Part shown: positions 11,631 to 63,766 of the stretch, one piece after another
Layout: the number at the start of each line of letters is the position of its first letter
Position numbering within the stretch: the first letter of the stretch is position 1
Assembly: GCA_016936075.1 (NCBI GenBank)
Contig: JAFGPS010000049.1
Span: forward strand, 1-64,000
Direction: 5' to 3'
Source: Sedimentisphaerales bacterium
GTDB lineage: Bacteria > Planctomycetota > Phycisphaerae > Sedimentisphaerales > Anaerobacaceae
Length of the DNA stretch: 64,000 nt
Position numbers and translations under genes: made by a program
The notes under the pieces: model-generated
The model's input: only the letters and a program-made list of their open reading frames with translations
What the model was told of the DNA's origin: nothing
The model's database searches: none

Positions 11631-11695
11631 TTTATGTTTTGAATTGAATGTAAATTCCTAAAGCATGAATTGAATATAAGATATTGAGTGTAAAA

Positions 11696-12250
11696 ATGAA
11701 TGAAGTGACTCGCATATTAAATGCAATTAGTCAGGGAAAAGCGCAAGCTGCGGATGAGTTGCTTCCACTGGTTTATGATGAACTGCGACTTCTTGCTGCT
11801 CAGAAGTTAAAACGTGAGCAACCTGGCCAGACACTTCAAGCTACTGCTCTTGTTCATGAAGCTTATATTCGATTGGCAGGCGAAGAATCCCAGAATTGGA
11901 ATGGTCGAAAACATTTTTTTAGAGCCGCTGCCGAAGCGATGCGGCGGATTCTCATCGATAACGCACGCCGCAAAAAGAGCCTTAAACATGGGGGAGAGCA
12001 TCAAAAGATTGAGTATGATGAATCTATTCTGAATCAAAATTGTAATTCATCCGCTGATGATTTGATAGCTTTGGATGAGGCTCTTGTAAGACTATCTGCT
12101 GAAGATGAAATAAGAGCGGAAGTAGTCAAACTTCGTTATTTTGCCGGATTGACTGTTGAGCAAACAGCGGAAGTCCTGGGGATTTCTCCTCCAACAGTCA
12201 AACGTTATTGGGCTTATGCTCGTGCATGGCTGCTTCGTGAAATTGGATAA
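11696..12250 (+). CDS. ECF sigma factor, TIGR02999-like (kinase-linked)
   Basis: 184 residues from ATG 11696; an upstream TTG at 11684 adds four residues. Sigma region 2 is seen in LLPLVYDELRLLAAQKL, LQATALVHEAYIRL and FFRAAAEAMRRILIDNAR. Sigma region 4 is LRYFAGLTVEQTAEVLGIS followed by PTVKRYWAYARAWL. This is the ECF group abundant in planctomycetes and acidobacteria that sits next to Ser/Thr kinases. No anti-sigma factor is present, and the adjacent downstream kinase is the likely controlling partner, probably by phosphorylation. The pairing is established for the group; the target regulon here is unknown. Confidence 0.9.
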   Translation: MNEVTRILNAISQGKAQAADELLPLVYDELRLLAAQKLKREQPGQTLQATALVHEAYIRLAGEESQNWNGRKHFFRAAAEAMRRILIDNARRKKSLKHGGEHQKIEYDESILNQNCNSSADDLIALDEALVRLSAEDEIRAEVVKLRYFAGLTVEQTAEVLGISPPTVKRYWAYARAWLLREIG

Positions 12251-12374
12251 AATTAAAAAATAGTCCACATTTGCATTAGAAAAAGCTTTTTTAAAAAATA
12301 TTTAAAAATATTGATCCCAGTCGGAGTTAATTTACGCGTTATATGATAGTACCATATTGTAAAGGAATTTGATT

Positions 12375-15300
12375 GTGGGAATTGACAGAAAGAAAGAAAA
12401 GGCAATTTTTGATGCTGCGATGGAATTTGAAAATCCAGAAGAGCGGAATGCTTATGTAATAAAAGCATGCGGCGATGATGTCGAACTACTTTCCAGTATC
12501 CAGAAATTATTAGAGTATCATGATTCGAGTAGTTTTCTTGATGCTCCTGTTTTTGAATCAGATACTATAATTGATATAACTCCCATTTCCGAAGACTCTG
12601 GTACAGTAATAGGTAGATACAAACTGCTTGAAAAAATTGGTGAAGGGGGAATGGCAACCGTCTATATGGCCGAACAGGAACGCCCTATGCACCGTCGTGT
12701 TGCTTTGAAGATTATTAAATTGGGCATGGATACAAAGCAGGTTATAGGCCGCTTTGAGGCAGAACGTCAGGCTCTCGCGATGATGGACCATCCAAATATT
12801 GCAACCGTTTTGGATGCTGGAACAACCGAAACTGGTCGGCCATACTTTGTTATGGAATTGGTCCGGGGACTTCCTATAATTGAGTTCTGCGACAAAAACA
12901 ATTTGAATACAGAGGAACGCCTTGAATTATTCATTTCAGTTTGCCATGCCGTACAGCATGCCCATCAGCGAGGAATCATTCATAGAGATATTAAGCCCTC
13001 AAATGTGCTGGTTACTCTTCACGATGGTAAGCCGGTAGCTAAGGTTATTGATTTTGGAATTGCCAAGGCCCTTAATCAGCGGCTAACTGAAAAAACCGTT
13101 TTTACCCGATATTCTCAGATGATAGGTACGCCGGAGTATATGAGTCCTGAACAGGCGGAAATGAGCGGGCTTGATATTGATACAAGGTCTGATGTATTCT
13201 CGCTGGGTGTACTCCTATATGAATTACTTACTGGTGCAACTCCATTCAATTCGGAGTACTTGCTGCGCAAAGGTTATGGAGAAATGCAGAGGATTATTCG
13301 GGAAGAAGAACCGATGCGTCCATCCACAAAAATGAGTACTATTGGAGAAGCTTTGACCGAAGTTGCGCAGCATCGCAAAACTACACCTGAAGTTCTCAGA
13401 AAAACTGTTCGCGGTGACCTCGATTGGATTGTGATGAAAACTTTGGAAAAAGACAGGGCTCATCGCTACCAGACGGTATATGCTTTAGCTGAAGACATTG
13501 CAAGACATCTAAAAAATGAGCCGATAACCGCATCTTCACCGGGTACATTCTATCGAATTCATAAATTTATTAAGAGAAATCGAGTTAAAGTAATGATGTG
13601 GTCGTCTGCGGCTGTTATTGTTATTGGTTTTTTATTTGTATTTAATTTGTATTTTCACTTCAGGACCGAACGAAATAAAAACGACCATATCAGGTCTATT
13701 TCATTGGTTGAAGATTTAATTACTAACGGAGACTATGAAAATGCGCTTACTGAAGTTCAGCCTTACCTTTCCAGTAAGTTCGTTGGGTCAAAAGCCCAGC
13801 TCTTGAATGCGCGTATACTATTGGAACTTCAAAGGCCGGATGCCAGTATAGAGCAATTGAATAAGCTGCTTAACGAACAGTCAGAAATCGCTGCCAACGC
13901 GCATTTACTTCTTGCGAGAATTTATCTGGAGTCGGCATCAGGCGATCCTCATATGGAAGACAAAGCTGACGTTCACATGGAGCAGGGCGAAAAACTGATG
14001 CCGAGCACTGCTGAAGCTTATCTGCTGCGTGCCATGATATCACAGACTGTACAAGAGACACTCGGATGGCTTGCTGACGCGCTGGAGTTAGATCCTTCCA
14101 ATTACAGTGCACGGCGCACTCGTGCCTTAACTTATTATGCGCTTGGCGAATATCGTGAGATGGAGACAGAAACTTCTGTTATGGTGGGCAGTCAGCCTAA
14201 GAATCCGGCGGGTTATTCTCTTCGTGCTATTGCAAGACGTGAACTTGCATTGCAGCAAAATAATAGTGAAATGCTCAACGAAGCTCTTGATGATCATAAT
14301 CGTGCAGTAGGACTTACGTCACCAAGTGATAAACGTCTGGAAGAAATCTGTTATCAGCGATATCAGACTCTTATGAAGATGAGCAAATATGATTATGCTC
14401 TAACCGATATTCAGACATGTATGAATATTCAGCCGGAAGAGCCGCTATATCATTTTAATATGTTCTGCACTTTATTGGCGATGGGTGATTATGAAGAAGC
14501 CCAGGCAGAATATGACAATATTCAAAATTCACGTCTTATGGATAGAATGCGTTTTGATAATATGATTGCAAAATATGTTTTTGATAGTTTATGTTCACAA
14601 GTTTCATTTTATCCGAAGAACAGGCCGCCGGAAGGGAAAGCCTTTGTTAGTATGTATGAAGCTGTCAGGCAATACAACCAGCTTGCTGAGCGGGCCAGGC
14701 GTGTCGTAGCAGAAGGTTTTCATCCGAGTATCTCACCGGATGGGACTAAGTTGGCATACAGTCGAGGTGTGCTTGGTGCCAGTGCTATTGAAATACTTAA
14801 TCTAAGTACAGGTAAGACTCAGTTGCTAACTGTTCCCGGCAAAGACCCGGCGTGGTCACCTGATGGAGAATATATTCTTTATGTTCGTGACAGGCATGTT
14901 TTATCAATTAAGGGCTTGACATCTCCAGGTGAATTGGCGCATCAGCCTTTCGAACAGGAAGAAATTTGGATTATCAAAGCCGAAGGTAAAGAACGTCCAC
15001 GATTTCTTGCACAGGGTGGTTGGCCAAACTGGACAAGCGATTCGAGCAGGTTTTACTACAAAAGCCGTTTGAACAACATGGTCTATTCTTTATCTTTGGA
15101 TTCTAACAATACAGAACCAAGGGAAGTTTTTGTGTGTAATTCAACTTTTCCGGTTGTATCACCTGATGAGAATTTAATAGCTTTCACTGATAAAAAGAGC
15201 GGTACGTTACAAGTAGTGGATTTAATAAGTCAATCAGTTTTAGCATCCTGGTCGGGGCCTAAAGGAAAGATAAATGAAATGACTTTTATCAGCTGGTCTC

Positions 15301-15530
15301 CTGATGGAAAACAACTGGCGATAGGATCTTATTTAGATGAAGGCCTATGGATTTATGATATTGACAATAAGACTGCTGCCAAACTGATTGATGGTTTTTA
15401 TGCATGGTGTGGATGGTCCGCTCATGATAATAACAAAATGTTTATCGAACGTGTATATGGGTCATGGCATCATGAAATCTGGATTGCTGATGTTGCAAAA
15501 GACGGCATTCCTGTAGTTAACCCAAAATAA
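12375..15530 (+). CDS. Membrane Ser/Thr protein kinase with TPR and TolB-like propeller domains
   Basis: 1051 residues from GTG 12375, chosen because aaagga lies eight bases upstream; a TTG at 12369 is too close to it. Kinase domain about 78-370: glycine loop GEGGMATVY, catalytic Lys in VALKII (about 112), HRDIKPSN (about 202), DFG near 226 and GTPEYMSPEQ. A single membrane helix lies about 405-427. The outside half has TPR-like repeats (about 440-740) and a WD40/TolB-like beta-propeller (about 780-1051, with SPDGTKLAYSRG and SWSPDGKQLAIGS). It follows its ECF sigma factor by about 120 bases. The architecture fits a sensor kinase that reads an envelope signal and acts on the sigma factor. Confidence 0.9.
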   Translation: MGIDRKKEKAIFDAAMEFENPEERNAYVIKACGDDVELLSSIQKLLEYHDSSSFLDAPVFESDTIIDITPISEDSGTVIGRYKLLEKIGEGGMATVYMAEQERPMHRRVALKIIKLGMDTKQVIGRFEAERQALAMMDHPNIATVLDAGTTETGRPYFVMELVRGLPIIEFCDKNNLNTEERLELFISVCHAVQHAHQRGIIHRDIKPSNVLVTLHDGKPVAKVIDFGIAKALNQRLTEKTVFTRYSQMIGTPEYMSPEQAEMSGLDIDTRSDVFSLGVLLYELLTGATPFNSEYLLRKGYGEMQRIIREEEPMRPSTKMSTIGEALTEVAQHRKTTPEVLRKTVRGDLDWIVMKTLEKDRAHRYQTVYALAEDIARHLKNEPITASSPGTFYRIHKFIKRNRVKVMMWSSAAVIVIGFLFVFNLYFHFRTERNKNDHIRSISLVEDLITNGDYENALTEVQPYLSSKFVGSKAQLLNARILLELQRPDASIEQLNKLLNEQSEIAANAHLLLARIYLESASGDPHMEDKADVHMEQGEKLMPSTAEAYLLRAMISQTVQETLGWLADALELDPSNYSARRTRALTYYALGEYREMETETSVMVGSQPKNPAGYSLRAIARRELALQQNNSEMLNEALDDHNRAVGLTSPSDKRLEEICYQRYQTLMKMSKYDYALTDIQTCMNIQPEEPLYHFNMFCTLLAMGDYEEAQAEYDNIQNSRLMDRMRFDNMIAKYVFDSLCSQVSFYPKNRPPEGKAFVSMYEAVRQYNQLAERARRVVAEGFHPSISPDGTKLAYSRGVLGASAIEILNLSTGKTQLLTVPGKDPAWSPDGEYILYVRDRHVLSIKGLTSPGELAHQPFEQEEIWIIKAEGKERPRFLAQGGWPNWTSDSSRFYYKSRLNNMVYSLSLDSNNTEPREVFVCNSTFPVVSPDENLIAFTDKKSGTLQVVDLISQSVLASWSGPKGKINEMTFISWSPDGKQLAIGSYLDEGLWIYDIDNKTAAKLIDGFYAWCGWSAHDNNKMFIERVYGSWHHEIWIADVAKDGIPVVNPK

Positions 15531-15565
15531 TATAGCTCAACATAAATTCTAAAAGGAGTAAGTAA

Positions 15566-16477
15566 ATGAATGCTAAAGTGATATTAATAACAGTAATTTT
15601 AATGGTGGTAACTTGCGGAACTCTGGCTGCGGACTGGCCTCAGTATCTTGGGCCCGATAGAAACAGCACTTCATCTGAGACGGGTATTTTACGTTCATGG
15701 CCTGAAGGAGGGCCGGAAGTTCTATGGACTGTTTCCGTTGGTAAAGGTTTTGGTGGACCTGTAATCAAAGATGGCAAAGTTTATCTGCTCGACAGGGATG
15801 ATGAGGTCGGCGATACAATGCGTTGTTTTAATCTTTCCGATGGCGAAGAAATATGGAAATTTGGTTACGAAGCTAAGGGTTCAGTTATGTTTCCGGGTTC
15901 GCGAAGTGTCCCAATCGTTGAAGGGAATTTTGTTTATTCGTGCGGCCACAACGGTAATTTGTATTGTATAGATATCAACACACACAAGCCTCTCTGGAAT
16001 AAGAACGTATGGAAAGATTTTGGTGGTGGTTCACTTCCGACATGGGCAATTACACAGTGTCCTGTTATTTATGGAGATTTACTTATTGTAGGTTCGCAAG
16101 CACCACAAGCCGGTGTTGTAGCTTACGATAAACTCACAGGTGAAGTTAAATGGAAATCACCATCTCTCGGCCCAGTCGGATATGTTAGTCCGGAGATTGT
16201 AAAAATTGGCGAAAATGACCAGGTTGTAATGATTACGGCCTCAGAAGATAGAGGCGGCGGTAGTCAAGGTGTGTTTGGATTAAATCCGAAAAATGGTGAA
16301 GTCCTTTGGAATTATCCTGATTTTAAGTGCATTATTCCTGTATCGAGTGCTTTTTATGTCGGTGAAGATAGAATTCTGATTATAGGTGGATACAACGCTG
16401 GTGCTGTGATGCTGAAAATTGAACCACAGGAAGATGGCAGCTATAAGGTAAATGTATTAAGGTTAATGAATAATTAA
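15566..16477 (+). CDS. C-terminally truncated secreted PQQ-like beta-propeller protein
   Basis: 303 residues with a signal peptide (cleavage near TLAADWPQ) and strong protein and DNA similarity to the 445-residue protein at 17162-18496. They share DWPQYLGPDRNSTS, GSVMFPGSRSVP and YSCGHNG. Similarity stops at QEDGSYKVNV, where the paralogue continues for another 140 or so residues (about two propeller blades). The copy therefore ends early with an altered tail (LRLMNN). It may be a decaying duplicate or a shortened functional variant. Ribosome site aaaggag lies ahead of the ATG. It is followed after 35 bases by an ECF sigma factor that separates it from its full-length relative. Confidence 0.75.
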   Translation: MNAKVILITVILMVVTCGTLAADWPQYLGPDRNSTSSETGILRSWPEGGPEVLWTVSVGKGFGGPVIKDGKVYLLDRDDEVGDTMRCFNLSDGEEIWKFGYEAKGSVMFPGSRSVPIVEGNFVYSCGHNGNLYCIDINTHKPLWNKNVWKDFGGGSLPTWAITQCPVIYGDLLIVGSQAPQAGVVAYDKLTGEVKWKSPSLGPVGYVSPEIVKIGENDQVVMITASEDRGGGSQGVFGLNPKNGEVLWNYPDFKCIIPVSSAFYVGEDRILIIGGYNAGAVMLKIEPQEDGSYKVNVLRLMNN

Positions 16478-16512
16478 TTTAATTTCTATGGCTAATATTT
16501 GAGTAGAATTCT

Positions 16513-17148
16513 ATGGAAGTCTTACAATTACAAAAGCATTTATCTATAGTTGATACAGCCTTTAAAAAACTTTCTGATAATGAACTTCTTAAGCGATATT
16601 CAGTAGGTGATGAAAGTGCATTTCGAGAGTTGGTTGTTCGTTATAAAAACAGCCTGTATTCTTTTTTAAGAATGTTTCTTTATAGAGATGACCATGTAGA
16701 GGATGTTTTTCAAGAGACATTTTTACAGTTCTTTAAGAGTTTGGATCTCTTTGATATGAACAGGCCTGTACGCCCATGGCTATTCATGATTGCTGCTAAT
16801 AAAGCGAAGGATGCTATTCGTAAATTACAGCAGATACATGAAGTACCTTTTGTAATGCTCGCAGATTCAGAGGAGAATTGTTTTGAAGACTTTTTTAATG
16901 CCATTGTAAGTGATAATTCAACACCAGCTGTTAAACTTGAAGAACGCGAATACGTATTACTTGTTAGAGAAGTCATATCGATTATGCCAGTACATTATAG
17001 GGAAATATTACTTCTTGCCTATTTTAATAAATTTTCTTATAAACAAATTGCTGATATACTAAGTATACCAGTCGGGACTGTTAAAAGCAGGCTCCATAGC
17101 GCTGTTAGGCATTTTGCTAAATTGTGGAGTGAGTCTGTGTATCATTGA
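16513..17148 (+). CDS. ECF RNA polymerase sigma factor
   Basis: 211 residues, canonical ECF layout. Region 2: LLKRYSVGDESAFRELVVRY, VEDVFQETFLQFFKS and RPWLFMIAANKAKD. Region 4: MPVHYREILLLAYFNKFSYK then QIADILSIPVGTVKSRLHSA. There is no anti-sigma gene next to it and no C-terminal extension, unlike the three fusions at the right end of the window. It is only 13 bases ahead of the full-length propeller gene at 17162, so the two are probably co-transcribed, and it could drive the propeller cluster (inferred). Confidence 0.9.
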   Translation: MEVLQLQKHLSIVDTAFKKLSDNELLKRYSVGDESAFRELVVRYKNSLYSFLRMFLYRDDHVEDVFQETFLQFFKSLDLFDMNRPVRPWLFMIAANKAKDAIRKLQQIHEVPFVMLADSEENCFEDFFNAIVSDNSTPAVKLEEREYVLLVREVISIMPVHYREILLLAYFNKFSYKQIADILSIPVGTVKSRLHSAVRHFAKLWSESVYH

Positions 17149-54084: not shown

Positions 54085-55044
54085 TTATGGCTGTAGTATA
54101 TCTTCTGTGCGGCCGTCTATGGTAATGATAACTTCTCTGACAGTCGAGAACTGTTTTAATGTTTGTTCTATTTGCTCATATATAGATGCAATTCTTGAGG
54201 AACCTGCTACTTGAAATTCAAGTTGCGAACTAAAATCAACTCTTGCAACTCCGTTTATAATCGATAGTTTCTGAACTCTGACACCAGTATTAATCCTGGT
54301 ATAAAATCCAGCTTCTTTTTCCTGCTCTGTAGGTCCTTTTAATAGTTCTTCCAGAGCGGCTCTTGCGGTTGCCTGGGTTTTCTGTATGACACGAGTTGTA
54401 GCGTACACTTCGTCAAGCAACGGATCAGTATCAAGTTTATGATTTCCGAAAAAGACCTGAATCTCTATCATGTCGAAAAAAATAGGGATTCTTACTTCCC
54501 TATTATTTTCCACCAGGCCGGATGGATTATTATTGCAGAGAATTACCACACCGCTTCTTTCATAACCGGATGAAAATTCCAGTGTTGCGATGAATTGTAC
54601 GAAGTCCTCAGTCATCCAGTTAGACTTTGCTTTTGCATTGCCGCTGGCAATTATTTTGCCATCCGAATTAGCGAGCATTACAGGAAAATCCGCTTCGAAA
54701 AACCAGAATCCCCTCGCCTTCCCTTCAATAATATAAGGACTGGGTATTTTTTGATATGGAAGTGGGGAAGTGACAATAATTAAATCTTCTATGGAACGAT
54801 TCGCTAAAGGTGATTTTACTGCATTCTGCTTGGTTGGTTCTGGTTGTATTTCTATATATTTTGGTGCAACTTCACCTGTTTGCATATCACTGATATTTAT
54901 TGCACTCGGCGCCGGTTCACCTGGAAAATTTTCGCCTGAAGTAACATTAGCAGACTCATTATCATTGCTAAAGAAAACAAAAGCGAGAAAACCAAATATA
55001 AGTATAAGAATTATTGCTACAATAGCATTCGATTCACTATTCAT
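54085..55044 (-). CDS. Membrane-anchored Gmad2 / GerMN protein
   Basis: 319 residues from ATG 55044 (ribosome site aaggattgcctg). An N-terminal anchor helix about 5-25, then a low-complexity linker. Next a Gmad2 immunoglobulin-like domain (IIVTSPLPYQKIPSPYIIEG to SGVVILCNNNPSG, about 85-195). The C-terminal GerMN domain starts at IQVFFGN and contains RAALEELLKGPT, VQKLSIINGVARVDFSSQLE and QFSTVREVIITIDG. The pair occurs in GerM-type and other envelope proteins with an uncertain role in peptidoglycan or lipoprotein handling. It follows the three sigma fusions. Confidence 0.88.
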   Translation of the reverse strand: MNSESNAIVAIILILIFGFLAFVFFSNDNESANVTSGENFPGEPAPSAINISDMQTGEVAPKYIEIQPEPTKQNAVKSPLANRSIEDLIIVTSPLPYQKIPSPYIIEGKARGFWFFEADFPVMLANSDGKIIASGNAKAKSNWMTEDFVQFIATLEFSSGYERSGVVILCNNNPSGLVENNREVRIPIFFDMIEIQVFFGNHKLDTDPLLDEVYATTRVIQKTQATARAALEELLKGPTEQEKEAGFYTRINTGVRVQKLSIINGVARVDFSSQLEFQVAGSSRIASIYEQIEQTLKQFSTVREVIITIDGRTEDILQP

Positions 55045-55059
55045 CAGGCAATCCTTAAA

Positions 55060-55186
55060 AAAACAGCCGTAATTCATTGCGGCTTAAACATATAATGCCT
55101 GTGTTAATTGTACTCGAAAAACAAATTAAATCAAGCCGCCTGAATATAAAATTCCGAAATGGTTCAATCTCAAAACAGCCGTAATT
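55060..55186. repeat. Two copies of a 15-base direct repeat
   Basis: aaaacagccgtaatt occurs at 55060-55074 and 55172-55186, 112 bases apart, in the gap between the GerMN gene and a sigma fusion. The first copy lies just upstream of the GerMN ribosome site. This could be a repeated regulator-binding site or a remnant of a small duplication. Confidence 0.5.
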
Positions 55187-55221: not shown

Positions 55222-56670
55222 TTAAGTTGATTCCTTTTGTCTATTGATGCTTTTTGTTCTCTGGTACAATTCGGTTATTAAAAATCCCAATACTAATACA
55301 GCTATAACCGCACAAATTGCAAAATTAACCTCACGAAGAGAATGGTTTGAAAAAAAATGTTTCTCACCGTACATAGACACCCACTTTTTCCATCGCAGAT
55401 TAACAACTAAAAGATTAATAAGACCAATAACAGCATATGTACCGACTGAAATAAAGTTATAATATTGCCTGTAACGTAAGCATATTTTTATGGATACAAT
55501 ATAAATTAACACTCCAATAATTGAGAGAAACAAGAGTATAAACCAGTCTTTGGCTTGAACTGAGATTAGGTAAGCCCACGAAAGAAAACCATAAATACCT
55601 CCGGCAAATGAGCTGTATATCTGGCCATTTGTTTTTATACGCTTATCTGGTTTTACATATGTGCCGTCTTCTATTTGAATATCCTTACGTTTTTGTTTTG
55701 ATAAATGTATCAAATAAAATACCGCAGAAAATGAAATTATAAACACAGCAGGAATACTCAAAAACTTTATCCCCGAGCCGGGATTCGTTAAGTTAAGAAT
55801 TAAAATAATTGTTAGCCCAATGAAGATGAACAACAGGGTAAAATAAGCCCTTTTCTTCATAAATTCATATTCTCTTAGTGACTTCGAATCATCGATATTT
55901 GCTTTAGTTCCGATGATGGAGCCAAGCAAACCAAGCAAAGGACCTAAGAACGCTCCAATAACACTTAAGTAAGCGGCAAATTTTGCTGCGGCTGAACCTT
56001 TCGCTGCTACGCTCAAAATAGCCGCACTTGCAACCTGCGGTGTAAGAGCCGGAAGAGCGGCAACAACCGCGATAGTAAATGCTTTCTTGGGTGAGGTTTT
56101 TCCGAGAATATCTTCGACGAGTGTTGACATTTCGGCTTTTAATAATTTGCGGCCGCGAGAGAGTCTTTGTTTGGTGACTTCTGCGGATAATTCGAGTTGA
56201 GCCGCGACCTGTTTTATGGATTGCTCTTCGCGATAGAAAAGCACCATAGGTTCGCGATAAGTTTCGGGTATTTCCTGAAGTGCCTGCCAGATTACTGTTT
56301 GCTGCTCTTTTGAAATAGCTATCTGGTCCGGCTGGGTTTTTGATGTTTCAGAAGCAGCCGCGTTTTCTATTGGTTGGGCGGAATCAATTACATCTTTGCT
56401 TTGTTTTCTGATGGATTGCCTGAGAAGATTTCTTGTGATAGTACAGAGCCATGCCCTGAATTTTCCCAGGTCCTTTAATTGTTTTAATTCTTTCCACGCT
56501 TGAATAAAAGTTTCCTGCGCAAGTTCCTCGCTTTTGGCAAAATCTCCTGTTGCGCTGTAAGTAATGCTGCAAACAAGCGACTGGTAATTCTCAACTATTG
56601 TGCCGAACGCTTCTTTATTGCCGCTCAAACTCGCGTTGAGCAAATCTATTTCGTTTGTGAAAGTATTCAT
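55222..56670 (-). CDS. ECF sigma factor fused to a polytopic membrane domain
   Basis: 482 residues. Sigma region 2 (about 5-95): GNKEAFGTIVENYQSLVCSI, EELAQETFIQAWKELKQL and FRAWLCTITRNLLRQ. Region 4 (about 125-190): IPETYREPMVLFYREEQSIK, QVAAQLELSAEVTKQRLSRG. Then a hydrophobic hinge PKKAFTIAVVAALPAL and six or more membrane helices to the C-terminus. The hinge is shared with the next two genes upstream. It could be a membrane-held sigma factor released by proteolysis or altered by sensing in the membrane. This is inferred; I see no separate anti-sigma gene. Confidence 0.85.
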   Translation of the reverse strand: MNTFTNEIDLLNASLSGNKEAFGTIVENYQSLVCSITYSATGDFAKSEELAQETFIQAWKELKQLKDLGKFRAWLCTITRNLLRQSIRKQSKDVIDSAQPIENAAASETSKTQPDQIAISKEQQTVIWQALQEIPETYREPMVLFYREEQSIKQVAAQLELSAEVTKQRLSRGRKLLKAEMSTLVEDILGKTSPKKAFTIAVVAALPALTPQVASAAILSVAAKGSAAAKFAAYLSVIGAFLGPLLGLLGSIIGTKANIDDSKSLREYEFMKKRAYFTLLFIFIGLTIILILNLTNPGSGIKFLSIPAVFIISFSAVFYLIHLSKQKRKDIQIEDGTYVKPDKRIKTNGQIYSSFAGGIYGFLSWAYLISVQAKDWFILLFLSIIGVLIYIVSIKICLRYRQYYNFISVGTYAVIGLINLLVVNLRWKKWVSMYGEKHFFSNHSLREVNFAICAVIAVLVLGFLITELYQRTKSINRQKEST

Positions 56671-56742
56671 CAGTTAAACCCTTTTTAACAAAAATACATT
56701 ATACATTCACAAACATAGATTCAAAAATGGAAAAAAGGTGAC

Positions 56743-56791
56743 AAAAAAAACAAACTGACCGAGACTATTTGTAATAAATCGGTCAGTTTGT
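56743..56791 (-). terminator. Rho-independent terminator after the 1271-residue sigma fusion
   Basis: On the minus strand, acaaactgaccga (56791-56779) and tcggtcagtttgt (56762-56750) form a perfect 13-bp stem, 36 bases after the stop at 56828. A run of eight T follows (complement of 56750-56743). A textbook terminator separating this gene from the sigma fusion downstream. Confidence 0.9.
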
Positions 56792-56827
56792 GTATTTGAG
56801 ACTTTTATTTTAGAGTAATTTTGACTT

Positions 56828-59800
56828 TTACTTAAGCTGGATGAATGTTTCGAAAGTTTCACCGCTTGAGATATTGTTTAAATTAATATCCATCTTGTAA
56901 ATTTTAGTTGCGTTTATACCGTCTTTTTCTGCTTGAATAATGAATTCACCGTCAGGAAGAAAAAATTCACTGCTATAGTTATCCTTTGAATCGGGCAATT
57001 TGTAGCTATTTTCTCCAGCGATCCAGACGTTCGCATTTTCAACCGACTGGCCATCCTGATCGAAAACCTGCACATAAAGATGTTCTTTGAGCTTTTCTAT
57101 AAGCTCATCAGTATCTAATTTCAAAGTAAATTCTGTAGAATCAGGAATTGTCACAACTATACTATCATTGAAATTCGGCAATTTCGGATTAAAGTAATAA
57201 GTTCCCGGGAGCAATCCATCTTTACTCTTATTATTGGTGATCGTTCCGGAAATACCATATTCGGAGTTGAAGAAACGAACACTTTTTATTTTTCCAGGAA
57301 GTGCTCCGGTTACTGTGACATTGCCTTCCTGAATTGGCAGAGTGACATCCATATTTATCTGGTCTTCGGGAATTTCGATTGGATATTGATATTCTTTTCC
57401 ATCATATCGAATACATGCATAATAAAGTCCCGGCTCAGGAATACTTATCTCGTAAGGTACATTTGATTTGGGTTCATCTTTCCAATAGATAATTGCACCT
57501 AAATAGGGTTCCTTCTGATGTAAATTGAGATTAGTTATAGATTTTTCTTGCTGCTCGGATGCTTCAACTGTAATTGTTAAAGTTTGCTTTTTGGCGGGTA
57601 CTATTCCCAGGTCGATATCGTCATAACCAACTACAATATCTGTGAGCTTTGTTGTTAATGTCATAGATTTTTGTGTTCTTCTCTCATAAGAAAGCGTATA
57701 GGTTCCGGGCAATTCCGCTGATACAATAAAACTGCCATTTTCATCAGTAAAGGCATTATATCTGTAAAGGCCGCTTGCGTCCGATTTGCCTAAAGTAAGC
57801 ATAATCTGTGTATCTTTTAATGGGCTGCCGTCAACTATTAGCCGGCCGCGAATAAGCGGGCCGTTTCCTAAGTCCTGATGAATTATCATATTATTCGATG
57901 GAATGATCGCACGTGCGGCTACACCGGTCTGCTCATATGCTCTTTTGCGGACAATATAACACAAATCCTCCGGCAAATTCTCCATACGGTAATAACCATT
58001 CGAATCCGTAATTTCCTGAGCATAAATTTTCTCTGAAGAAGAGTAAAGAAAATGATTTTTCGCATGTAAGGTCACTCCCGACTGGGGATTGCCCTGGCTA
58101 TCATAAACGAAACCTTCGACAATTCCGCCGTTATTGAGAGTAATCTGCCCTAAGTCACTAATTACTTCTTCTTCGACCAGGATATCTGGTATCATAGTAA
58201 AAGTGTAATCCGGATGAGTAATCTTTATAGTTTCAGTTCCGGCTGCGACGTTTTCAAGTGTAAACTGTCCGGACTCATCCGTAGTTACAAGACCTTCTTC
58301 GCTTTCAAATACAGGTTCGATATTTGTTTTAGGATCTCCGGCTAATGAGTAAGGTAAAACCTTAGCATTTACAACTGGATTTCCTTCTGAATCTACAACA
58401 ACGCCGGCTATCGAACCGCCGGGAGTCAGTTCGAGATGCAGTGACGTATCGGTTTCGGTCTCGTCACTCCACTTTGGAGCATATCCTTCTGCAATCGCCT
58501 GAACTTTACAAGTAGCTTTTCCATCACCAATTACATCTAAGGAAAAAGCTCCATCTTTATTTTTATATTGAATCCACTTCCCTTCGCTACTGTAATGAGT
58601 ACTTGTCATTCTCTGATAGCGAAGTCGGAATTCAGGTATTGGTTTACCGGTTAAAGCATCAGTGACAGTACCATAAAGCTTTTGATTTCTTGTTGTATTT
58701 ACATAATAATTCGGGACAGGCGTTGGCTTTTGAGGTATTGTCACCTCAAATAGTTTGTCCTGCTCCGAAGGCAGTTGCGCTGAAAACAATGTGATACCGA
58801 TGGAACCTCCTCCACCTTCTGGAATCAAGGCCTGGATACGATATGTCCCTGAAATGATTTGATTCATTGTGAAAAAACCATTCGGGTCAATATCAAATTG
58901 GGGTGGAACGAGATTACAGTGCCACCAGTCAGGATATGGAACAATTTTACATTCTTTGGCGGGTGTACCGTCATAATATTTGGCAAAACCGGAAACTTGC
59001 TCACCTTTGAGCAGGACAATCTCGCCGTATTCGATGACATTGGGATCGGTCAATTTAACTTTAAAATATCCGGGCGCAAAATCCAGGATATCTTCACGGA
59101 TTCTTTGGCCATTTTTTTCTTCCCAGTCACCTAATACGCTATGTATCGAAGTAAACAAATAAGGTTTGTCAGAAGGGGGAAAACCTCCCAATCGAATATA
59201 ACCATTTTCATCAGTTTTGTGTGAAGTATTAGTGTTGCCTACTTCTACGCCATGCTCATTTGCTAAAGATGTCACCCATATACGAGCATCACTTATCGGC
59301 ATTAATTCTTCGTCAACAACATAAAGGTCAATCATACATGCCTTTTCTAACTGGAAGTGTTGTACTGCCTGTCCGTCTTTCTCCAGGTGCATTTTGGGTT
59401 GTGTGTCGGAGCTTGTAAGTCCGATGAATTTATTTGAGTAAACGCCAATTGAGTAATCACCGGCCTGGTCTATTTTGCCAAAACTATAAAAGCCGTTCGC
59501 GTCGGTTTTGGTTTTATAGAGTCTGCCGGGACCGATAGATACCTCCGCATCTATTATCGGTTCGCCTGTTTTTGCATTTGTAATCAGTCCGCTTAATATT
59601 CCTTTGGGTACAAATTTATTCTCGATATTTTCTTTAATTACAACCGGTTCAGGTGATTTGACAACGAGTTCTTCATTTTCTAATTTGCTTTGAGTTTCAT
59701 TCATGGCTAACAATTGTGACGGATTCTCGACAGGTGCCTCAATTGCTTCTTCTATTTCAATTTCTGTTTCCTGCTCTTGTTCTTGTTCGGGAGAAATTGT

Positions 59801-60643
59801 TATTGCCGCAGATTGTGAAATATTCTGTTCCGGATTCGGCTTGGTAACATGTTTGTATGTCACTACTGCCCCGATACCAATAATCAATATTGCAGCGGTA
59901 GTAATTATCTTTGCCGTTACGCCGCTCATTATCGCGGCTGCGCCCGTGGTAGTTCCTGTCGTGGTTGAAGTTGCGGCAATACCGGCGGCTGCGGCGACAC
60001 TCGTGCCTGTTATTGCCAGGCCTGCAAGAGACGCCATAACAGCCGTAGCGAACGCCTTTTTAGGTCCTGAGATTGAAAGAGTTTCCTCAACGATAGAACT
60101 GAGCTGCTCTTTAATCATATTTCTACCACGTTGTAAACGTTGTTTTACGGTATCTTCAGATAAATCCAGTGACATCGCAACCTGCTTTACGGATTTTTGC
60201 TGACGGTAATATAAAATCAAAAGCTCTCGGTATTGTTCCGGAACCTGTTGAATTGCATCGTTGACGAGTTCTTTATATTCCTTTTTGATTGCCGATTCGA
60301 GCGGACTGGACTCATCGGCAGCTTTCTCGTTTATATTTTCCATAGGTTTGGCCTTTGCAATAATATCCCGTTGATTTTTGTTTAAAAAATTTCGTATGTT
60401 GTTTCGGGCTATAGAGCAAAGCCATGGACTGAACTTTGAAAGGTCCTTGAGTTGAGAAAGGTTTTTCCAGGCATTTATAAAGGTTTGATGTGCCAGTTCC
60501 TCACTCTGTTGAAGGTCCGCCGTGCCACTGTACGTGATTGCACAAACCAGGTCCTGGTAATTCGTTACAATTGCTTCAAAAGCCTGTAATTTGCCGTTAA
60601 GACATTGTTGTAATAGTTTTGTTTCTTTTGTCTTGCTTATCAT
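56828..60643 (-). CDS. ECF sigma factor fused to carboxypeptidase-regulatory-like repeats
   Basis: 1271 residues, far longer than a usual ECF sigma. Region 2: GKLQAFEAIVTNYQDLVCAI, EELAHQTFINAWKNLSQL and FSPWLCSIARNNIR. Region 4: VPEQYRELLILYYRQQKSVK then QVAMSLDLSEDTVKQRLQRG. Hydrophobic hinge (about 198-225), membrane helix about 246-262, then a low-complexity linker. The remaining 900 residues are many Ig-like carboxypeptidase-regulatory (CarboxypepD_reg) repeats: GLITNAKTGEPIIDAEVSIG, GTVTDALTGKPIPEFRL, GVVVDSEGNPVVNAKVLP and GFVYDSQGNPQSGVTLHAKN. The architecture predicts a cytoplasmic sigma tied to a large outside domain that could sense or bind glycans or peptides. Ribosome site aaaggagtctta. 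Confidence 0.9.
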   Translation of the reverse strand: MISKTKETKLLQQCLNGKLQAFEAIVTNYQDLVCAITYSGTADLQQSEELAHQTFINAWKNLSQLKDLSKFSPWLCSIARNNIRNFLNKNQRDIIAKAKPMENINEKAADESSPLESAIKKEYKELVNDAIQQVPEQYRELLILYYRQQKSVKQVAMSLDLSEDTVKQRLQRGRNMIKEQLSSIVEETLSISGPKKAFATAVMASLAGLAITGTSVAAAAGIAATSTTTGTTTGAAAIMSGVTAKIITTAAILIIGIGAVVTYKHVTKPNPEQNISQSAAITISPEQEQEQETEIEIEEAIEAPVENPSQLLAMNETQSKLENEELVVKSPEPVVIKENIENKFVPKGILSGLITNAKTGEPIIDAEVSIGPGRLYKTKTDANGFYSFGKIDQAGDYSIGVYSNKFIGLTSSDTQPKMHLEKDGQAVQHFQLEKACMIDLYVVDEELMPISDARIWVTSLANEHGVEVGNTNTSHKTDENGYIRLGGFPPSDKPYLFTSIHSVLGDWEEKNGQRIREDILDFAPGYFKVKLTDPNVIEYGEIVLLKGEQVSGFAKYYDGTPAKECKIVPYPDWWHCNLVPPQFDIDPNGFFTMNQIISGTYRIQALIPEGGGGSIGITLFSAQLPSEQDKLFEVTIPQKPTPVPNYYVNTTRNQKLYGTVTDALTGKPIPEFRLRYQRMTSTHYSSEGKWIQYKNKDGAFSLDVIGDGKATCKVQAIAEGYAPKWSDETETDTSLHLELTPGGSIAGVVVDSEGNPVVNAKVLPYSLAGDPKTNIEPVFESEEGLVTTDESGQFTLENVAAGTETIKITHPDYTFTMIPDILVEEEVISDLGQITLNNGGIVEGFVYDSQGNPQSGVTLHAKNHFLYSSSEKIYAQEITDSNGYYRMENLPEDLCYIVRKRAYEQTGVAARAIIPSNNMIIHQDLGNGPLIRGRLIVDGSPLKDTQIMLTLGKSDASGLYRYNAFTDENGSFIVSAELPGTYTLSYERRTQKSMTLTTKLTDIVVGYDDIDLGIVPAKKQTLTITVEASEQQEKSITNLNLHQKEPYLGAIIYWKDEPKSNVPYEISIPEPGLYYACIRYDGKEYQYPIEIPEDQINMDVTLPIQEGNVTVTGALPGKIKSVRFFNSEYGISGTITNNKSKDGLLPGTYYFNPKLPNFNDSIVVTIPDSTEFTLKLDTDELIEKLKEHLYVQVFDQDGQSVENANVWIAGENSYKLPDSKDNYSSEFFLPDGEFIIQAEKDGINATKIYKMDINLNNISSGETFETFIQLK

Positions 60644-60859
60644 ATTAAGACTCCTTTTAATCCAGTTTGTATTATAGCCTTAATAATAAAGAAAACGCAG
60701 AACAAAATCGGTGACAGAAAATCTGCTATTTTTGAAAAAAAATATAAAATATGCCATTTCTCGTGCAAAATTGCCATGACATAATCGAAAGGAAGGGAAT
60801 CCATATACAAATAGATTTTAAGTCGATTATCGAATTATATTTGATTGGCTAATATTTTA

Positions 60860-63607
60860 TTAAGGTATAATCTTCAAGTTATCAATATAAGGATTTTTTA
60901 CCTGAAGATTTTTAATTGCTTTTAAGCTGAAAGCATAATCAGATGTTAGTTCCAGTGATGTCAGAGCTGGTAAATTGCTTAAATAATCAAGCGACTTATC
61001 TGTGAAATGACCATCCATAATGGTCAGGCGATTTAGTTTTGACAAATCAGCCAGGCATTGTATTCCTTTGTCAGTTATGCCAACTTCACGAAGACATTGA
61101 ATACTTAAAGATTCAAGATTCTTCAAGCCTGATAAATATTTCATTCCATTATCAGTTATACCAAAACCGGAAATTTGTAACCTGTTGAGCTTGGTTAAAT
61201 TTGCAAGACAGGCCCAGTCTTCATCTCGAAACCGTGCAATATTTGAAAGTGATCCATCTCTATAGTTCATTTCAGCATTAAGAAATAGAATCATATCCAC
61301 CAACTCGGTTAAGCCGGAGATATCCATAATTTCGGAATTGTCCTGCTTAATTCCTTGCATATTTAGATATTTTAAGTTTTTGAAATTATTAAGATGTTTC
61401 AATCCAGAGACAGATATTGCATCGCCTCCAATTGCAAGTTCTATCAGGGACTTTAATGGTGCAAGTTCTTCTATTGCTTTGTTTGTCAATCGTTTGCCGG
61501 AAATATTAAGTTGTTTTAGATTTGTTAATTTAGCGATATACTTTATTCCTTCATCACTAATATCCGGCTTAATTACACTTAGTGATTCAAGATTTTTAAG
61601 CTCACTAATATAACGCAAAGACTCGTCGGTAACATTCCTGCTGTTAATAACAAGGCTTTCGAGTCGTTTGCATTTGGCGAGTTCAGCAACTCCCTTATCT
61701 GTATAAGTTCCGCCTACTCTATCAAGGTGTTTCAGCTTACTCATCCGGCCAAGATAACTTAAACCTTCATCACTAAAGGAATCAGGTAAGAATAAAGATT
61801 CAATGTTTTTACATTCCTGCAAATGAGATAAGCCTTCGTCAGAAAGTTTGCCTCTCAATGTACTGAAGGTCTTCAGATTTGGTAAGTTTTTTAAATATTT
61901 AACACCTTCATCAGTTATTCGATTATTCCAATACACATCTATGCTTTCCAATTGAGTCAGCCTGGCAAGATTTTTCATGCCCGAATCGTCGAATTGCTCG
62001 GAATCAATTTTAATTGCTCTCAGTGAAGATACATCTTTAAGGTATAAAGGAGCATTATTTGTGAAATTGCCGCTCAACATCAAATAATTTAAATTAGGGA
62101 GTTCGGAAAGCACCTTCAGTCCTTCGTCTGTTACGCGGACGGCGGGTATCTGGAGAATCCTTAATGATTTCAAATTTGTTAATTGTTTAAGTCCGGCATT
62201 CGTCATAGAGTTATCTTCGCTCATACGAATAACTTGAAGTGATTTAATTTTTCCAACCGCGGCCAGTCCCGAATCATAGACATTAGCTGGCGGACAAAAA
62301 CTCTTGAGCGATTTTAAACCGGCCAGAGATTCCAGTCCTTTGGTGGTAATGTTTGCCCCGTCAATATTCAGCGTTTTCAATTCTGACAAATGTAGAACAT
62401 AAGGCAAACACTTATCGTTCGGACTTTGACCTCCTATAGACCATTTCGGACTTAGAGTTAGTGAATAAATATCATCAGGTTTCAGTTTTTCTAACAGAGA
62501 TAAAGTAGAAGGATTTTGCCATGTCCAGGAATACAGGATTAACTGTAATATTTTACCTTTAGGTATTTTTACATCACCCTGTGCGCTGCCGAAACTTTCC
62601 CATTCGACTTCTTCAAAAGGATTTGGAACATCGGGTGCGGTTCCTTCATCTGCTATCGACAAACGACCTATCGAACGCTCTTTTGGAAAATGCAAAATAC
62701 GTTCACCGGTCTGTGTTTCGACTTGAAGTAAATCTAAAGAAGAATTTGATTCGGCAGGAGCATTTGAATCTGTATTTTTAATCAATCCCTGCCGCACTAA
62801 ATCCCATGCGCTTTGTGTGTTCATAGATGCTTTCAAAGCATTATTTGAGTTATGATATATTGCAACTGAGCCGACCGAAATTGTTATTATCGCCGCGGTA
62901 GCAATTATTTTTGCTTTAATGGCGGTGCTTACTCCTGCTGTTATACTCGCGCCGGTTACTACCTTGCTGCCTGCAATTGCGATTTTTCCGAGTTCTTTCA
63001 TTATAAAAGCCGGAGCGGCCTGGACTATGTTTTCAGTAAGCAGGGCACTCAGAATAGCGGCGGGTACTATCACACCTCGAGATGTTAATTTTTTACGCAA
63101 AGAATCTAATCCTGATTCTATTTTTCGTGATACTGTCGGTTGTGATATATCGAACTTTTCTGCGATTTCAGTCATCTTCTGACCTTCGAAGAAGTGCAGG
63201 ATAATAACCTCTCTTGTCAAAACGTCCAGCTTTTCAATTTCTTCATCGATATAAAACGAAATTTCACGCCAGGCGGCTTTGTTATCTTCGGATTCTGCAT
63301 TTTTGGAATCAGCAGCATATATCAATTCACGTTGTTTTCGTCGCGAATCACTTCGAACAAGATTAATTGCTTTATATGTCGCTACACTGTGCAACCAATT
63401 GGATAGAGAGTCGGTAATTTCCGCCGCATCACAAACCAGTTGGAAAAATGTATCCTGTACCACATCAGCTGCTATTTCTCTGTTTGAAAGGATACGAAGG
63501 CATACTCCATAAACCATTGGGGCATGTTGTTTAATAATTTGAGCAAAAGCCTCTGAGTCACCATTTCCCGAGAAACGTCTCAATAATATAAATTCACTTT
63601 CCGCCAT
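60860..63607 (-). CDS. ECF sigma factor fused to leucine-rich repeats
   Basis: 915 residues. Region 2: NGDSEAFAQIIKQHAPMVYG, IAADVVQDTFFQLVCDAAEI and SNWLHSVATYKAINLVRSD. Region 4: LDVLTREVIILHFFEGQKMT then EIAEKFDISQPTVSRKIESG. Hydrophobic segments about 175-200 and a membrane helix about 231-250. Residues about 330-905 are some 22 leucine-rich repeats with DEGLKxLxxLxNLxxLxLSG-type units (ITDEGVKYLKNLPNLKTF, LSDEGLSHLQECKNIESL). The LRR domain, probably outside, is a likely protein- or glycan-binding sensor. Good ribosome site ggagac. First of the three sigma fusions, transcribed toward the others. Confidence 0.9.
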   Translation of the reverse strand: MAESEFILLRRFSGNGDSEAFAQIIKQHAPMVYGVCLRILSNREIAADVVQDTFFQLVCDAAEITDSLSNWLHSVATYKAINLVRSDSRRKQRELIYAADSKNAESEDNKAAWREISFYIDEEIEKLDVLTREVIILHFFEGQKMTEIAEKFDISQPTVSRKIESGLDSLRKKLTSRGVIVPAAILSALLTENIVQAAPAFIMKELGKIAIAGSKVVTGASITAGVSTAIKAKIIATAAIITISVGSVAIYHNSNNALKASMNTQSAWDLVRQGLIKNTDSNAPAESNSSLDLLQVETQTGERILHFPKERSIGRLSIADEGTAPDVPNPFEEVEWESFGSAQGDVKIPKGKILQLILYSWTWQNPSTLSLLEKLKPDDIYSLTLSPKWSIGGQSPNDKCLPYVLHLSELKTLNIDGANITTKGLESLAGLKSLKSFCPPANVYDSGLAAVGKIKSLQVIRMSEDNSMTNAGLKQLTNLKSLRILQIPAVRVTDEGLKVLSELPNLNYLMLSGNFTNNAPLYLKDVSSLRAIKIDSEQFDDSGMKNLARLTQLESIDVYWNNRITDEGVKYLKNLPNLKTFSTLRGKLSDEGLSHLQECKNIESLFLPDSFSDEGLSYLGRMSKLKHLDRVGGTYTDKGVAELAKCKRLESLVINSRNVTDESLRYISELKNLESLSVIKPDISDEGIKYIAKLTNLKQLNISGKRLTNKAIEELAPLKSLIELAIGGDAISVSGLKHLNNFKNLKYLNMQGIKQDNSEIMDISGLTELVDMILFLNAEMNYRDGSLSNIARFRDEDWACLANLTKLNRLQISGFGITDNGMKYLSGLKNLESLSIQCLREVGITDKGIQCLADLSKLNRLTIMDGHFTDKSLDYLSNLPALTSLELTSDYAFSLKAIKNLQVKNPYIDNLKIIP

Positions 63608-63766
63608 TTTTTAAAGTCTCCATAACGCTATTATATTTGTTTTTCGTTCTCTTTACAAATATAAGTCGTTACCGGAGAAAATATTATTCATCAAAATGCG
63701 AAAGTTTTTAAAAATTCATTACTATTTCATCTGAAACGGTACTTTTTTAATCTAAAAAACGCATGA

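Follow-up and report, generated by a model that had tools for sequence, protein, structure and literature searches.

Five or more genes lying in a row in the genome of a Sedimentisphaerales bacterium (Planctomycetota) encode proteins in which an extracytoplasmic function (ECF) sigma factor, one or more transmembrane (TM) helices and a C-terminal tail form a single chain. In one type of these fusions (type A) a short hinge behind the sigma factor is as conserved as the sigma domains themselves, and types A and B each have a predicted promoter signature of their own. Three of the genes lie in the window, the whole stretch of 64 000 bases that was analysed (bases 1–64000 of a 68 216-base contig from a fragmented, 4.36 Mb genome). 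They are, in transcription order (right to left), P0003 (915 aa; 60860..63607), P0002 (1271 aa; 56828..60643) and P0001 (482 aa; 55222..56670); these genes and the features given for them below are all on the minus strand. P0003 joins a type-A sigma factor to a hinge with the residues AAP and ELGK, one TM helix and a leucine-rich repeat (LRR) tail, P0002 a type-B sigma factor to a hinge with the motif PKKAF, a TM helix and carboxypeptidase-regulatory (TTR-like) repeats, and P0001 a type-B sigma factor and PKKAF hinge to a polytopic tail. The three open reading frames (ORFs) have exactly the coordinates given in the preliminary description of this DNA, which had reported three consecutive fusions; the genes are indeed consecutive, but the row continues past the window with two more genes of the same architecture and strand (L001:13865-16120 and L001:16270-18216, the latter cut by the end of the contig). 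An identical 87-nt stretch inside the sigma coding region is common to the ends of contigs C92, C151 and C204 of this genome (G000). It is an assembly fork from near-identical sigma genes, and the other two contigs at the fork carry further genes of the extended-ECF family. Since the row contig ends at this fork inside the fifth gene, the array may in truth extend beyond what this contig shows.

The sigma moieties, here called heads, appear complete. Sigma regions 2 and 4 exceed the Pfam curated cut-offs in P0001, P0002 and P0003, all of which match NCBIfam ECF families and have the ECF (group IV) layout of sigma2 and sigma4 only, with a short linker. The AlphaFold models of the sigma part have confidence scores (pLDDT) above 90 and match SigW, SigK and RpoE in Foldseek searches, and the sigma core residues and folds are intact. 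The genome holds 93 matches to sigma region 2; the closest named relatives of the P0003 head come from metagenome-assembled genomes of Sedimentisphaerales and other Phycisphaerae/Planctomycetota, followed by Hydrogenedentota. Comparison with a congener (G001) showed strong purifying selection on the heads of orthologues and fast divergence of their tails, a pattern of conserved output and changing input. For P0001 the sigma part is 93% identical between the two species, with a ratio of non-synonymous to synonymous substitution rates (dN/dS) of 0.059, vs 33% and 0.35 for the tail; for C204a the values are 94% and 0.058 vs 48% and 0.30. Such low dN/dS values of the heads speak against a vestigial sigma factor and, with the conserved promoters described below, are indirect signs that the heads may bind core RNA polymerase and direct transcription. 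As the preliminary description had it, each is a single polypeptide without a separate anti-sigma factor: no anti-sigma domain was recognizable by Pfam in the three chains and none is encoded next door. The anti-sigma zinc finger zf-HC2 is likewise absent from P0001, P0002 and P0003 (Pfam), the 11 matches to it in the genome being located elsewhere. We rejected a hidden anti-sigma domain within the chain because the hinge is too short for one and zf-HC2 is absent.

The type-A hinge comprises about 38 residues immediately after sigma4 and follows the pattern [RK]G[IV].V.A..L..LL.EN.V.AAPA....ELGK[IM]A[LIM].G (62966..63088 in P0003, residues 174–214). Averaged over 29 sequences that span two phyla, column identity is 0.52–0.58 in the hinge, 0.58 in sigma2 and 0.49 in sigma4, vs 0.27 in the low-complexity, variable linker between sigma and TM helix, 0.35 in the TM helix and 0.11 beyond it. 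A 41-residue profile of the hinge alone found matches in 18 of 392 planctomycete genomes. All the matches listed were ECF sigma factors with the hinge directly behind sigma4 and a membrane helix after it, with the exception of one for which the retrieved stretch ends before the sigma region. The membrane helix of P0003 is at 62858..62914 (about residues 232–250) and that of P0002 at 59864..59920 (about residues 242–260). The two type-B proteins do share PKKAF, at residues 194–198 in each (60050..60064 in P0002, 56077..56091 in P0001), in a hinge that differs in sequence from that of type A. Proteins of the P0001 family obey the positive-inside rule better if the PKKAF hinge helix also spans the membrane, giving seven spans.

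Both types carry predicted ECF-like promoters that are lineage-specific and nearly private to their own genes. The type-A signature is TGAATAA-N15-CGACTTAT; in P0003 it reads TGAATAATATTTTCTCCGGTAACGACTTAT (63661..63690) and starts 83 nt before the ATG. The pattern TGAAT[AC]A-N15/16-C[GA][CA], mostly 72–83 nt before the ATG, precedes 16 of the 33 type-A genes vs 0.08 expected from shuffles, and the fuller TGAATMA-N15/16-CGMCNNAT occurs six times in the whole genome, five times before type-A genes and once inside an ORF. Across 60 genomes of the family, those sites that are spaced by 15 nt and end in CG[AC]C[CT][TA]AT mostly stand directly before type-A genes; in this survey, which like the genome-wide regulon search relied on patterns and did not follow every weaker site, the type-A genes of genomes G015, G320, G674 and G685 were found through the motif alone, and a site in G016 does not precede a type-A gene. 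The type-B signature, TGTCAC-N18-TCT, lies 61–78 nt before the ATG of 15 of the 26 type-B genes (spacing 17–19) vs 0.12 expected, and 13 of its 14 matches among 910 ORFs are type-B genes. It reads TGTCACCGATTTTGTTCTGCGTTTTCTT before P0002 (60689..60716) and TGTCACCTTTTTTCCATTTTTGAATCTA before P0001 (56716..56743), starting 73 nt before the ATG in both cases. TGTCAC is the known -35 element of ECF41 (PMC3426412), and motifs over-represented before ECF genes are an accepted means of inferring the targets of autoregulated ECF sigma factors (PMC8103513). These nearly private promoters suggest autoregulation of the predicted sigma factors. Type-A genes also keep a sigma70-like TTGnnn-N17-TATAAT beside the start, again private to type A; in P0003 the stretch TATAATAGCGTTATGGAG (63618..63635), confined to type-A genes, holds the sigma70-like -10 element and the ribosome-binding region. 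We rejected TATAATAGCGTTATGGAG as a regulon marker, as with up to two mismatches it was found only before type-A genes, and an inverted repeat around the type-A promoter, seen by eye and considered as an operator, was dropped because it was without compensatory support. Each of the three window genes is preceded by a separate promoter within a gap of its own (157, 216 and 256 nt), so transcription of the row as a single operon is improbable.

A tree of 110 sigma domains, built by a quick method, placed P0003 in the type-A clade (32 members, support 100) and P0001 and P0002 in the type-B clade (26 members, support 99), well apart from type A. The sister of P0001 is a congener protein that shares its polytopic build, and several other genera also contain polytopic proteins like P0001; P0002 clusters with proteins from other genera of the order, two of which bear long tails related to its own. 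As both of these architectures are also seen in further genera within the order or class, the type-B fusions are old and predate the row. Type-A hinge matches number 11 in this genome, and strong type-A matches two in G001 and none in G002. The row is a gathering of old fusions combined with a local expansion of type A. The duplication with module swapping suggested in the preliminary description survives in part: exchange of tails within type A is supported (see below), but a single recent duplication giving all three genes was rejected by the sigma tree and by the old fusions in other genera. The three-gene order, whose conservation had been proposed as a check, is not kept in G001, where the homologues sit on separate contigs.

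A third type of extended ECF sigma factor, type C, comprises four genes in a clade of their own (support 99), for example L007:12336-16345 (G000:C67), L008:1479-3353 and L010:1990-3936, each with one membrane helix; two are in tandem, and their tail belongs to an unknown family common to the members at 34–52% identity. Two further extended proteins were seen. L142:8406-11213 of the congener G001, near its P0001 orthologue and on the opposite strand, encodes a 935-aa ECF sigma factor that has about five membrane helices and ends in a soluble region without annotation, and L009:2268-3737 (G000:C176) encodes an ECF sigma factor with a C-terminal extension of about 310 aa that has no membrane helix and no Pfam match.

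The tails are diverse. Hinge and membrane helices are followed, as previously described, by LRR repeats in P0003 (LRR_14, E = 1e-26; 60998..62404, about residues 402–870), by carboxypeptidase-regulatory repeats in P0002 (CarboxypepD_reg, E = 1.5e-41, five stretches; 57587..59596, about residues 350–1019) and by six to seven hydrophobic helices in P0001 (55273..55968, residues 235–466). Tail exchange within type A appears to be real: type-A heads of this genome are 57–74% identical and their tails, when of different classes, are unrelated, so that one head type bears LRR (P0003, whose linker is also found in the truncated C151 gene), LolA-fold and thioredoxin-like (the two genes upstream of P0003 and one on C151), TTR-like and thioredoxin-like (C139, C203) or short tails (C204). 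The thioredoxin-like domain of the LolA-fold-tailed genes recurs in C139 and C203 at 38–44% identity, with weak Pfam matches to thioredoxin and AhpC-TSA, and carboxypeptidase-regulatory tails are found on both A and B heads. We obtained no conflict between head and tail trees within type A of the kind that would establish (recent) swapping, as the sigma tree lacks resolution (approximately unbiased test, p 0.43 and 0.36). The uneven synonymous divergence (dS) along C139a/C203 (2.2 in sigma, 0.42 in hinge-TM, 1.1 in the tail) only hints at exchange. The upstream sister tails are predicted to have a fold of the LolA/MucB (RseB) type. For the one adjoining P0003, prediction gave a structure of good confidence (pLDDT 84.8, from a six-sequence alignment), whose Foldseek matches included a DUF1329 protein, many structures of LolA and the complex of MucB with MucA. 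A sequence search of the tail against PDB gave no match, and the assignment was decided by this fold comparison together with weak sequence matches to Pfam LolA_like, DUF2092 and DUF4292. The AlgU/RpoE (sigmaE) pathway has MucB/RseB as its periplasmic sensor and regulator. The tails look like inputs (sensors), so 'outputs', as they had earlier been called, is probably the wrong word. Another tail class was seen in G001, where L143:3926-7480 carries on a type-B head a different tail of about 950 aa with only a weak match to the PD40 propeller.

We consider it about an even chance that these proteins are one-molecule transmembrane switches which lack a recognizable anti-sigma domain, are released by proteolysis in the manner of IutY and transcribe from their own promoters. 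The N-terminal sigma factor would be cytoplasmic, held at the membrane by hinge and TM helix and silent while tethered, and the tail (LRR, TTR-like, LolA/RseB-like or polytopic) would sense the state of the envelope or membrane. A signal in the tail would lead to a first cut outside and then to intramembrane cleavage by a site-2 protease of the RseP type, and the freed sigma factor would bind RNA polymerase and turn to its lineage-specific promoter, foremost that of its own gene. Because type-A heads have a common promoter signature, one activated member could also induce its sister genes. IutY is activated by Prc and RseP (PMC5411451), and the genome encodes M50 (RseP-like) and S41 (Prc-like) proteases. 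Also in favour of this reading are the complete sigma regions 2 and 4, the conserved heads with their diverging tails, the LolA/RseB-type fold of the upstream sister tails, the conserved hinge, the nearly private promoters and the recovery of planctomycete ECF sigma factors in membrane/sodium dodecyl sulphate (SDS) fractions (PMC8567305). More tentatively, and with doubt outweighing confidence, we consider a version in which the conserved hinge of about 38 residues, which is not an anti-sigma domain, silences the tethered sigma factor, the tails are exchangeable sensors and one private promoter, common to all type-A members, drives nothing outside the family, so that the firing of any one sensor would switch on all the others, making a many-input gate with positive feedback.

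Several observations weigh against release by proteolysis and autoregulation. The M50 and S41 proteases are housekeeping enzymes unlinked to the sigma-fusion genes, and a search for a cleavage site yielded none. In the AlphaFold models the sole part of the hinge placed with fair confidence is its first helix (about 86), and an inhibitory contact is not confidently seen; with the rest scoring below 50, the models neither support nor oppose docking of the hinge on sigma. The residues flanking the single span of type A are evenly charged (K/R 40 vs 35) and give no topology, and the hinge itself is marginally hydrophobic. The strict promoter motif is missing in about half of the A and B genes and in all four Hydrogenedentota members, and the strict type-A motif was without a convincing target beyond type-A genes, which implies a very small regulon.

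An unlikely alternative is that the sigma factor works while tethered, the tail altering the conformation or clustering of the hinge so that RNA polymerase is recruited to the membrane without proteolysis, as with the one-component membrane activators ToxR and CadC. The lack of a recognizable cleavage site agrees with this, as does the fact that the hinge, and not the TM helix or linker, is conserved, which fits an allosteric or protein-contact role; moreover, planctomycete ECF sigma factors, and even SigA, have been recovered in membrane/SDS fractions (PMC8567305). However, the characterized fusion of sigma, TM and periplasmic domains, IutY, is activated via RseP cleavage, and the segment between sigma and TM is the low-complexity, variable linker. 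Rather improbable is a hairpin in which hinge and TM helix both enter the membrane and a cytoplasmic tail contacts sigma, like the SnoaL and TPR extensions of ECF41 and ECF42. The indecisive flanking charges and marginal hydrophobicity of the hinge (mean hydropathy 1.55) leave room for it, the K/R-rich loops of the P0001 family fit a membrane-crossing hinge and LRR repeats are also known from the cytoplasm, but the type-A hinge is broken by the conserved E/N residues, AAP and ELGK, its insertion score in our own rough approximation is +2.2 vs -0.1 for the TM helix, and domains of the LolA-fold and TTR-like kinds typically lie outside the cytoplasm. That the heads are relics or mere anchors for tails working as structural or enzymatic envelope proteins is very improbable: some tails are very large and the type-A promoter has no convincing target outside the family, but the heads are the slowest-evolving part (dN/dS 0.06), keep their core residues and folds and have ECF-like promoters conserved along with them.

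Directly downstream of P0001 and co-directional with it lies a gene for a GerMN and Gmad2 protein ('sporulation and spore germination' domains; 54085-55077, minus strand). Elsewhere in the window, positions 11684-17148 hold in series an ECF sigma factor of the PF07638 type, a Ser/Thr kinase bearing TPR and PD40 repeats, a protein with a PQQ propeller and another ECF sigma factor, this one plain, a row that resembles known kinase-linked ECF loci.

C-terminally extended ECF sigma factors are abundant in planctomycetes, and beyond a few studied groups their control is, according to reviews, unexplored (PMC8103513; PMC8999054). If the one-molecule switch is real, sensor and sigma factor would be exchangeable as modules of a single chain. 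The predicted promoters offer a handle that can be tested with Escherichia coli reporters, without planctomycete genetics, and the invariant or near-invariant hinge residues (AAP, ELGK) are a second handle, on the question of a short linker standing in for the anti-sigma factor. New, as far as we have checked, are a hinge that recurs across the phylum, two promoter signatures each private to its type, a tail of the LolA/RseB fold and an array of many tails on one head, although the literature on planctomycete ECF groups may cover parts of this.

Membrane-tethered, C-terminally extended ECF sigma factors as such are already known from IutY, SCO4117/ECF52 and the planctomycete ECF-WD40 proteins. 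ECF41 shares with the present fusions a regulatory C-terminus without an anti-sigma factor, and its -35 element is like that of type B. ECF41 proteins are, however, soluble with a SnoaL-like domain, to which P0001, P0002 and P0003 have no Pfam match, and their promoter, TGTCACA-N16-CGTC, is matched by neither type: its -10 element CGTC follows after 16 nt, that of type B (TCT) after 18 nt. SCO4117/ECF52 of Actinobacteria, with ECF48 and ECF53, has the same order of ECF sigma, TM and tail, and proteolytic release has been proposed there; ECF52 is confined to Actinobacteria and has an anti-sigma zinc finger between sigma and TM, absent here. The RpoE-RseA-RseB and AlgU-MucA-MucB systems likewise link an envelope signal through a LolA-fold component (here in the upstream sister genes) to an ECF sigma output, with three proteins there and one chain here, in which no RseA-like domain was recognized.

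Long C-terminal extensions on planctomycete ECF sigma factors ('ECF01-Gob' among them) are what the present proteins also possess, and the earlier remark that such proteins are known in the phylum holds for ECF-WD40. The ECF-WD40 proteins of Gemmataceae are similar in their long C-terminal tail, paralogue expansion and domain shuffling, with recovery in membrane/SDS fractions there (PMC8567305), and the type-A hinge profile matches C-terminally extended ECF proteins of this kind in other planctomycete families. Instead of WD40, to which P0001, P0002 and P0003 have no Pfam match (a weak PD40 match was seen only in the congener protein L143), the present fusions bear tails of the LRR, TTR-like, LolA/RseB-fold, thioredoxin-like or polytopic kind. 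IutY of Pseudomonas putida (ECF243) also has ECF sigma, TM segment and C-terminal domain in one chain. Its domain order fits P0002 and P0003, P0001 being polytopic and the flanking charges being even for single-span type A; its FecR-like periplasmic anti-sigma domain has no Pfam match in the three proteins, and the type-A hinge and tail classes differ from those of IutY. In IutY the sigma factor is cytosolic and the C-terminal domain extracytoplasmic, and we model the present fusions on the way in which Prc and RseP activate it.

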